DNA of 64,000 bases from Fervidicoccus fontis Kam940 (GTDB lineage Archaea > Thermoproteota > Thermoprotei_A > Sulfolobales > Fervidicoccaceae): NCBI RefSeq assembly GCF_000258425.1, contig NC_017461.1:186001-250000 (forward strand), written 5' to 3'. Numbering within the stretch: the first letter of the stretch is position 1; every line of letters starts with the position of its first letter. The translations under genes and the position numbers were made by a program. The notes under the pieces are model-generated. The model did no database searches, was not told the origin of the DNA, and saw nothing but the letters and a program-made list of their open reading frames with translations. This document shows, one piece after another, positions 9,562-64,000 of this stretch.

Positions 9562-9590
9562 TTTTCATCATTTTTTAAATAGTGAAAAAA

Positions 9591-9676
9591 GCCGCCGGCG
9601 GGACTCGAACCCGCGACCACCAGCTTACAAGGCTGGCGCTTTAGGCCGTTGCGTCTGCCTGCTGAGCTACGGCGGC
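9591..9676 (-). tRNA. tRNA-Thr(UGU) with a 14-nt intron-like insert in the D-arm
   Basis: Read on the minus strand, the 7-bp acceptor stem GCCGCCG/CGGCGGC, the anticodon stem CCAGC/GCTGG with loop CTTGTAA (anticodon TGT), a 5-nt variable loop and the T-arm GCGGG-TTCGAGT-CCCGC all pair perfectly. CCA is not encoded. The D-arm is 14 nt too long: removing 14 nt after GGCAG or GGCAGA restores the stem GCTC/GAGC and an 8-nt D-loop with GG. A short CGC/GCG pairing around the junctions could form a relaxed bulge-helix-bulge for the splicing endonuclease. Such non-canonical introns are known in crenarchaeal tRNAs; an unspliced long D-loop is the alternative. Confidence 0.93.
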
Positions 9677-61480: not shown

Positions 61481-61582
61481 AAGACATATATTTATATAAG
61501 TTTGAGATTTTTCAAACTTAACTGATAATTAATAAAAACCAATTTAAATAAATTTTCAGTTAACTTTTAGTCGGTGATTCCC

Positions 61583-62530
61583 TTGGAAAAAGGCATAGGA
61601 ATAATAGGAGCAGGCTACATGGGACAGGCACATATAAGAGTTCTATCTGAAATTGCGAAGAAATATAGCTTAAAGATAACCTTTGTAGTGGAACCTGACA
61701 TAAATAAAGGAATGGATATATCCGCTAAGTATCAGCTAAGATATTACCAAACACTATCCGAAGCAATAAAGAATGAGGAAAATTTTATAGCATTTGTTTC
61801 TTCGCCCACATCCACTCACTTAGACTACATTGATGAGCTTTTGTCTAATGGAATTGAATACATTTTTGTGGAAAAGCCGCTGGGAAGCGATATAAATAGA
61901 GCAAAAGAGATTTTTAAAAAATATGGAAGAAATGTGTTAGAAAAGGTAATGGTCGGTCATATAGAAAGGTTTAACCCTGCGTTTGTAGAGTTCAAAAAAA
62001 TTGTAAAAGAGGAAAGTGTGCTAGGAGACCCCATAAGTATTACTTCGAGAAGAGTTGGGCCTTTTGCGGGCAGAATTAGAGATACTGGAGTAATATTAGA
62101 TCTAGCAATTCATGACATAGACCTCTCTCTAAGTCTCTTTGATAATGAACCTAAAGGAATAGATTCTTACAAGTACAATGTTTATAGCAAGGAGTACGAA
62201 GACTCTTGCTTTATAATACTGAATTACGGAAAATTCCTCCACTTTATAGAGGCCAACAGAGTTACCCCATATAAAGAGAGGAAAGCTATATTTACAGGCA
62301 CTAAAGGCATAGGTATAATAGATTATATGCAACAGTCATTAGAAGTATTTACTGGTCTATGGAAAATGGAAAGATCTGTTAACAAGAGAGAGCCTTTGGC
62401 TGTTGAAGACGAAGCATTCCTTAATGCTGTTATTAAAAAAGAAAAAGTCCCTGTGACTTTTGAAGATGGAATTAGAAGCCTAGAAATCGCATTAAAGGCT
62501 TTAGAAATAGCGAAAAATAACAATAAATAA
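61583..62530 (+). CDS. Gfo/Idh/MocA-family oxidoreductase
   Basis: About 315 residues. The NAD(P) motif is IGIIGAGYMGQAHIRVL, the substrate region EKPLGSDINRAKEIF contains the catalytic-Lys EKP motif, and DLAIHDIDLSL holds the His/Asp of the C-terminal domain. Such enzymes oxidise or reduce sugars, inositols or related compounds. I start at TTG 61583, 6 nt after GGTGA; GTG 61574 lies in that motif. The substrate is unknown and no sugar operon surrounds it. Confidence 0.88.
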   Translation: MEKGIGIIGAGYMGQAHIRVLSEIAKKYSLKITFVVEPDINKGMDISAKYQLRYYQTLSEAIKNEENFIAFVSSPTSTHLDYIDELLSNGIEYIFVEKPLGSDINRAKEIFKKYGRNVLEKVMVGHIERFNPAFVEFKKIVKEESVLGDPISITSRRVGPFAGRIRDTGVILDLAIHDIDLSLSLFDNEPKGIDSYKYNVYSKEYEDSCFIILNYGKFLHFIEANRVTPYKERKAIFTGTKGIGIIDYMQQSLEVFTGLWKMERSVNKREPLAVEDEAFLNAVIKKEKVPVTFEDGIRSLEIALKALEIAKNNNK

Positions 62531-62581
62531 TTTTTAATAAAGTTAAGCTTATTTATTTGCACTGACTTATTAATGATATTA

Positions 62582-62651
62582 GCCCGCTAGTCTCACGTCC
62601 TCAGAAACGCCATAAGGCGGATGAAGATGAAAGAGGAACGGTTAAGCGGGC
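62582..62651 (+). ncRNA. GC-rich three-tier hairpin RNA candidate
   Basis: Three nested stems fold in order: outer GCCCGC/GCGGGC (62582-62587/62646-62651), middle CGTCCTC (62596-62602) with GAGGAACG (62633-62640, one bulged A) and inner CGCC-ATAA-GGCG (62608-62619). The internal loops are 8/5 and 5/13 nt. The GC content stands far above the AT-rich spacer, a common sign of a thermophile's structured RNA. A TATA-like tract lies about 25-35 nt upstream. The two-sided lower loop is compatible with an H/ACA-type guide, but no ACA follows directly. The strand could also be minus. Confidence 0.55.
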
Positions 62652-62658
62652 AAAATTC

Positions 62659-63838
62659 TCAATCTAACAAATCTGAGTATATAGCTTTCTTAAGCTTTTT
62701 TCTATATTCTTTATCTCTGATCAGCTTTAAAGACATTGTCAAGAAAAGCTTTGGGGAAAAAATAGGAAATAGAATAAAATTTTGGTGTTCATCGTAATCT
62801 ATTGCTTTGCTGGATATTATCGAATAATTTTTAGATATGAAGCTAATTGTTTCATCTAATAATTCCTGATTACTTGGATTATGAAATACTCTAGAAATCC
62901 TCTCCTGTTTTTTCAGCTCTCTAAGGACATTAAAAATATTGCTTTTTATTTTTTCAAACACGTCCTCACAATTTATTCGCGTTACGTCAAAGTTTAAAGC
63001 CTTACTTATGCCATATATACCACCACCACTAAGCGGCTTCGACATTCCGAGAGCATCTCCAATTGCTATGACTTTTTTTGGAAATGCTACAGCTTCAGGT
63101 AAAGATACATTTATGACTCCGCCGTAGCTTTTTACAATTTTTATCCTATTATTCCCAAATAGTTCGTTCTCAAACTTATTAAGCGATAGCGGTATTTTTT
63201 TAGGGTCAAGAGACCCCAGTCCCAAAATGAATGTTCCTCTATTTAATGGAACTTTCCAGCTGAAAAATCCTGGAGAAAGATAATGATTAAAATAAACAGA
63301 AATATAATTTTCTTCTTTTATATTTCCCTCAATTTCAATAAGTCTGTTGATTCCTATTATTTGACTTGTTCTTTTATGCAAAAAAGGAGGAGGATTTTGC
63401 TGTATTGAGTTTCCCCAAGCTAACACTATATTATTAAAATCTTCAATTTTTTTCGTAGAAAAGTTGTAAAATCTGTCATGATCAACTAAAGCTACCTTTG
63501 TCTTTAAATAAACATTAACTCCTAATCCTTCAGCTATTTTTAACAGCTTTTTTTCCAAGCAAACTCTGTCAATACTGAATATTGGCTCATTTAGTTTTAA
63601 TTTAATGCTTTCACCATTTGAATTAAAAAAAAGCGATCTCTGTAAATTCTTTTTTGATACACTCATCTATTGGCGCATTCATCATCTTTAATGTCTTCTT
63701 GGAAACTATGCCTGTACAGTGCTCAGGGAGGCCCACTTCTGTATGCTCTTCATATAAATAAACATTGCAACCTGATTCGGAGAGTCTTATAGAAGTAAGG
63801 AGGCCTGATATGCCTCCACCTATTACACCTGTTTTCAA
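62659..63838 (-). pseudogene. Geranylgeranyl-reductase-like flavoprotein gene with frameshift
   Basis: Two frames together give one FAD protein of about 390 residues. The N-part, from TTG 63838 (GGTG 6 nt upstream), reads VIGGGISGLLTSIRLS, PEHCTGIVSKK and ends at a stop after a run of eight T. The C-part carries on with NSNGESIKL, FSIDRVCLEKK, VIAIGDALGMSKPLSGGGIY. Removing one T at about 63625-63632 joins them. It could be a genuine mutation, a sequencing slip in the homopolymer, or a programmed frameshift. It overlaps the end of the aldo-keto reductase only by its ribosome-binding site. Confidence 0.8.
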
Positions 63839-63849
63839 AAAATACACCT

Positions 63850-64000
63850 TTATGGAAAAACGTTTAAGCTCCTGTATATTGTAATTTTTCTTGATTCTTC
63901 TTCTAGCAAAAGCCAATCATCATAGCTCATCTTCCAATCTGCGGCACCAACATTTTCTATAACTTGTTCAGGATTCTTCGCTCCTGGAATTACTATCACA
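63850..64000 (-). CDS. Aldo-keto reductase, C-terminal end (cut by window edge)
   Basis: Reading leftward from the right edge, the frame encodes VIVIPGAKNPEQVIENVGAA, then DWKMSYDDWLLLEEESR and stops at TAA (63852-63850). IPGAKNPEQVxENVGAADW is the conserved C-terminal region of aldo-keto reductases, which reduce aldehydes or ketones with NADPH. The rest of the gene lies beyond the window. The next gene's GGTG motif overlaps this stop, so the two are probably translated together. Confidence 0.8.
   Translation of the reverse strand, partial: VIVIPGAKNPEQVIENVGAADWKMSYDDWLLLEEESRKITIYRSLNVFP

Follow-up and report, generated by a model that had tools for sequence, protein, structure and literature searches.

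A probable box H/ACA guide RNA gene of the Pab91 family in Fervidicoccus fontis and its relatives

We analyzed a window of 64,000 nucleotides from the genome of Fervidicoccus fontis Kam940 (NC_017461.1, positions 186,001 to 250,000 of the forward strand); unless given as genome positions, coordinates below are those of this whole stretch. Close to its end, a gap of 128 bp between an upstream gene ending at 62530 and a stop codon at 62659 contains a GC-rich hairpin. An earlier note, made from the letters of the sequence, had described three nested stems at 62582–62651, with a loop geometry recalling H/ACA guide RNAs, an apparently missing ACA box and an unusually large purine-rich loop, and had left the hairpin in a class that could not be named and might be undescribed. 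We therefore asked what kind of element it is. The gap has the described size, and all three stems and the 13-nt strand were present (Table 1). At a probability of roughly 95%, we consider the hairpin to be a free-standing gene for a box H/ACA guide sRNA of the Pab91 family, directed at one uridine of the 23S rRNA; its transcription, protein binding and modification of the target are predictions.

Table 1. Features of the hairpin and its surroundings in the window.
Feature	Position	Strand	Remarks
Predicted box H/ACA guide sRNA gene	62582–62655	+	Lower stem to ANA box
Lower stem P1, 5′ strand GCCCGCT	62582–62588	+	Partner 62645–62651; pairing 98.5% over homologues
Lower stem P1, 3′ strand AGCGGGC	62645–62651	+	7 bp with 5′ strand
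Upper (middle) stem P2, 5′ strand TCCTC	62598–62602	+	Partner 62633–62637; covariation in 5 of 5 pairs
Upper stem P2, 3′ strand GAGGA	62633–62637	+	5 bp with 5′ strand
Apical stem CGCC/GGCG, loop ATAA	62608–62619	+	62608–62611 with 62616–62619, 4 bp; covariation in 4 of 4 pairs
Predicted 5′ guide strand GUCUCAC	62590–62596	+	Partner 23S GUGAGAC, downstream of target U
Predicted 3′ guide strand CGGUU	62639–62643	+	Partner 23S AACCG, upstream of target U
Putative kink-turn, non-bulged strand AGAAA	62603–62607	+	Family consensus NGARA
Putative kink-turn, bulged strand GATGAAGATGAAA	62620–62632	+	13 nt; GAUGA twice in tandem
ANA box, here AAA	62653–62655	+	15 nt from P2 closing base
Candidate TATA-like element TTATTTATTT	62549–62558	+	AAG (BRE-like) just before; ≈23–37 nt upstream of motif
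Gfo/Idh/MocA-type oxidoreductase gene	61574–62530	+	Pfam PF01408
FAD-dependent reductase-like gene	Stop codon 62659	−	Label from reading of the sequence

Folded as a single sequence, the hairpin stretch outperformed each of 200 dinucleotide shuffles (z = −3.8). The opposite strand gave z = −3.0, and both the ACA and the pocket are absent from it. The minimum-energy fold of the window copy differs from the three-stem fold in the middle of the hairpin, where it pairs UCUC with GAGG and CGUC with GAUG and sequesters part of the pocket; at 37 °C, its advantage over the three-stem fold is 3.9 kcal/mol. The minimum-energy fold was nevertheless rejected as a working structure, because the covarying pairs described below are those of the three-stem fold.

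Five further genomes of the window's family carry the hairpin DNA, at 74–83% identity; with the window's own genus, four genera are represented. A covariance model built from four of these copies (R1) matched 122 of 197 genomes and 49 of 74 genera of the order, normally once per genome (E-values 1e-22 to 4e-3), and a search with a second model, built from 100 homologues (R2), also retrieved homologues in three genomes from other orders of the class. The second match in one genome (G012, locus L119) looks like a false positive and was set aside. Over 97 distinct homologues, the 16 pairs were standard in 97.7% of cases, and both sides had changed in 13 of them; the first pair of the middle stem, for example, is U-A in 47 homologues, C-G in 44 and G-C in 4. 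None of 500 shuffles reached any of the five measures used in the covariation control, and sliding the partners by one to three columns lowered the pairing to 47–62% (≈60% at one column). Because the main alignment had been fitted to the covariance model, a MAFFT alignment of 30 homologues built without the model was folded as well; in that alignment, RNAalifold again found the middle stem, the apical stem and some of the lower stem, and compensatory changes were present. The three-stem structure is real, and the comparative data settle it.

The lower stem is nearly invariant across the order as CCCCGCC/GGCGGGG, the window copy being among the few exceptions. Since pairing alone would permit change, this suggests that the sequence itself is recognized, perhaps by Cbf5, or that some other constraint acts on it. 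Two weak matches in family f11 (L144 and L145) have a lower stem of this type and an ACA box, but their pocket reads UAUCCAUC / GGUCAGCA. With a common lower stem and a different pocket, they are probably other H/ACA guides with a different target, or else chance matches.

We took as the mark of the class a hairpin in which an internal loop, the pocket, is set between two stems, the lower one of 7–9 bp. The hairpin has a lower stem of 7 bp and, above the pocket, 5 bp and the apical stem, with the covariation described above. The box directly behind the lower stem reads ACA in 89 of 99 homologues, AAA in five (the subgroup of the window) and AUA in three, the latter two being accepted box variants in H/ACA RNAs (PMC7991803). 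The ACA box is therefore missing in the window's subgroup, as had been noticed, but not in the family, where it stands at exactly the same place. The distance from the closing base of P2 to the box is 15 nt in 95 of the 99 homologues, and the 5′ strand up to the apical stem spans 10 layers in 67 of them and 11 in 25. These values match the published requirements for archaeal guides, which are 14–16 nt to the box and a stem of 10 layers up to the G·A pairs of the kink-turn (PMC4652768). The likeness to H/ACA guide RNAs suggested by the loop geometry was correct. A gene for Cbf5 was found in the genome (TIGR00425, above cut-off), in a search confined to Cbf5 among Cbf5, L7Ae, Nop10 and Gar1. This gene (467591–468525 of the genome, minus strand; L139 and L140) appears as two matches ≈23 nt apart, as expected for an intron, and a pre-mRNA intron is known for crenarchaeal cbf5 genes (PMC2738675).

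The earlier note had also proposed that the two strands of the lower loop be compared with rRNA around a uridine. We looked for sites at which both strands pair with the target, by at least 3 bp per side, leaving U-N unpaired. This comparison succeeded: the pocket strands pair with the organism's own 23S rRNA over 7 + 5 bp at AACCG-U-C-GUGAGAC, leaving U-C unpaired between the two helices as in H/ACA geometry, at genome positions 1065428–1065444 on the minus strand, where the target U stands in the context AACCG-U-CGUGAGAC. In the 4.7 kb searched (the 3′ part of 16S and the 23S rRNA), this was the only site with at least 3 + 3 continuous pairs, and shuffling produced as good a score for 4 of 5000 pockets and for 1 of 1000 rRNAs. 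By alignment with an E. coli 23S gene, the target U corresponds approximately to E. coli U2593, with the A of GAC-A-GUU set as A2602, its established number. Calculated as a plain duplex, the short 3′ guide helix reaches −4.2 kcal/mol, on a different energy model from the one behind the published cut-off of −6. The 23S gene itself was located with RF02540; the match (genome positions 1065111–1068316, minus strand; L017) covers 3206 bases against the 2987 positions of the model, and the gene may contain insertions or an intron.

Across the 99 homologues, the CUCAC core of the pocket is almost invariant, and CGGU is present in 94. On the rRNA side, where the site could be located in the order, 73 genomes have GACCG and 6 have AACCG; the exact string GACCGTCGTGAGAC is absent from the F. 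fontis genome because AACCG stands there. Strict co-variation between guide and rRNA was not found at the fifth position of the 3′ guide, which is U in two of five AACCG genomes and not in the other three. As this position fails to follow the change between GACCG and AACCG strictly, we do not claim guide–target co-variation. In family f11, the exact rRNA string was absent from all genomes examined and the Pab91-type RNA was not found either, a pattern that fits a joint loss of guide and site; in family f7, the rRNA string is kept and the guide was not detected.

These data also bear on whether the RNA might guide modification elsewhere, in a tRNA or mRNA, either in addition to the rRNA or with the rRNA match as a coincidence. 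Archaeal H/ACA RNAs have been proposed to act outside the ribosome as well (PMC4652768), and our target search covered rRNA only, but a pocket that hardly varies across the order and finds its complement in conserved rRNA at a single site, together with the parallel absence of RNA and rRNA string in f11, makes a different or additional target very improbable. For the guide with a 23S target, the Cbf5–Nop10–Gar1 complex would bind the lower stem and ANA box and L7Ae the kink-turn in the upper arm. The open pocket would capture 23S domain V, CGGUU pairing with AACCG and GUCUCAC with GUGAGAC, and the U-C at the pocket's top would stay unpaired, so that Cbf5 could isomerise the U to pseudouridine. 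The predicted modification would be a single pseudouridine in the peptidyl transferase region, next to the catalytic center of the ribosome.

The family of the RNA was identified through its homologues. Searched against Rfam, at the gathering cut-off and at E ≤ 10, the window copy gave only chance matches and none to Pab91. Eight of ten homologues tested, however, matched Pab91 (RF02795) end to end and on the correct strand, with E-values from 2.4e-6 to 0.034 (best E 4.8e-7 in a smaller search). Their scores of 27–44 bits all fall under the gathering score of 71 bits, which is why Rfam misses the family in this lineage. Like the RNAs described here, Pab91 of Pyrococcus abyssi is a single hairpin with a lower stem, a pocket of UCUCAC / CGGUC, ACA directly after the stem and, by sequence, the same rRNA target. 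The RNAs of this order differ in having a longer upper arm, with a 13-nt bulged strand in the putative kink-turn and a separate apical stem, and in their length (≈71–84 nt, against 57 positions in the Pab91 model), and the window's subgroup has AAA where Pab91 has ACA. Pab91 guides Ψ2685 in the peptidyl transferase region of the P. abyssi 23S rRNA, and its activity has been reconstituted in vitro (PMC6138745). From the identity of the pockets and a numbering derived from published positions, P. abyssi U2685 would be the same nucleotide as the target U here; the published spacing of Ψ2585, 2588 and 2603 agrees with equating P. abyssi 2685 with E. coli 2593.

Other archaeal guides are comparable by description. 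The H/ACA and H/ACA-like sRNAs sR201–sR210 of Pyrobaculum (Bernick 2012, as described in PMC4652768) are single-hairpin pseudouridine guides as well, and carry a kink-turn; ANA or degenerate boxes occur among them, and most Pyrobaculum guides have lost the lower stem, which is strong and conserved in the RNAs described here. Sso1 of Sulfolobus solfataricus belongs to the same RNA class in related archaea, but its target is U35 of tRNA-Tyr (PMC4652768).

The feature that had seemed most unusual was the purine-rich strand. In most homologues, the bulged strand is GATGAAGATGA or a near variant, with a consensus of GAUGAAGAUGARR opposite NGARA. Archaeal H/ACA guides are expected to carry a kink-turn or K-loop with tandem G·A pairs ≈8–11 layers above the pocket; in most homologues, GA stands on each of the two strands at a height of 10 layers. 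In the window copy, A·A replaces one G·A and the bulged strand is enlarged. The kink-turn could be registered with the apical stem as the C helix, GAU as the bulge, and GA opposite GA (here AA) beside the apical stem; beyond this first G·A step would come another GA/GA step and the extra nucleotides. In family f8, the bulged strand is shorter (GCTATGA or GCTGTGA) and looks canonical, with a bulge of 3 nt. Because the f8 strand GCUAUGA gives this standard three-nucleotide bulge, the longer strand is most likely a known module in enlarged form and not a new class. The 13-nt strand is indeed enlarged, on the 3′ side of the putative kink-turn, but it is a modest variation that occurs throughout the order and no sign of a new class. 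It is doubtful that GAUGAAGAUGA opposite GARA, with two GAUGA facing two GA steps, represents a new (enlarged or double) kink-turn architecture in an H/ACA guide, which would perhaps serve L7Ae in two registers or a second protein. For L7Ae binding, the enlarged kink-turn may pose a small structural puzzle.

An undescribed class of structured RNA with a regulatory or other role, as first suggested, is accordingly highly improbable. The lack of an Rfam match for the window copy and the 13-nt purine strand would point that way, but the H/ACA features open to testing are present, and the homologues have the ACA box, the pocket and the match to Pab91. As an H/ACA guide, the RNA would have an ordinary function within a known family, with a mildly unusual putative kink-turn. 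A Pab91-type guide, known from Pyrococcus, would thus occur widely in a large order of crenarchaea, unnoticed by the Rfam model, and the covariance model and alignment from this analysis would mend this annotation gap.

The surroundings of the hairpin were also considered. It lies between two converging genes and its 3′ end adjoins the stop codon of the downstream gene, as might be expected of a transcription terminator or another hairpin serving both genes. That reading is scarcely credible, since the sequences of pocket and box are conserved, the lengths of the internal loops are fixed, a promoter-like profile lies upstream on one strand and the gene neighbors in other families of the order are unrelated. 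The profile was obtained from 99 upstream regions aligned on the RNA start, which are A-rich from −37 to −35 and rich in A/T from −34 to −26 and from −13 to −4, resembling an archaeal BRE/TATA promoter with a start site near the motif. Because the flanking genes of the homologues differ outside the window's own family, the RNA appears to be an independent gene. When the Gfo/Idh gene was used as an anchor for relatives, the only gene retrieved was a distant one from Flavobacteriales. The chance of a C/D box sRNA gene or a tRNA-like gene is negligible: the C/D matches on GAUGAAGAUGA are weak and sub-threshold (11–13 bits against the 54–80 needed), RUGAUGA (C) and CUGA (D) do not occur as a pair in the proper order, the covarying stems occupy the supposed guide regions, and ARAGORN finds no tRNA on the hairpin, although its 7-bp closing stem resembles an acceptor stem.

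The reductase-like gene downstream of the hairpin (62659–63916, minus strand) consists of two overlapping ORFs in different frames, 62659–63666 and 63623–63916, with a run of eight A/T at ≈63626, near the overlap. Pfam gave no match for the larger fragment. The homologue in genome G003 (L023) is one frame of 370 residues, and the split may reflect a sequencing error, a pseudogene or frameshifting. Elsewhere in the window, a tRNA gene of 87 nt (9590–9676, minus strand) was missed by ARAGORN and detected by Rfam with 60 bits; it probably contains an intron.
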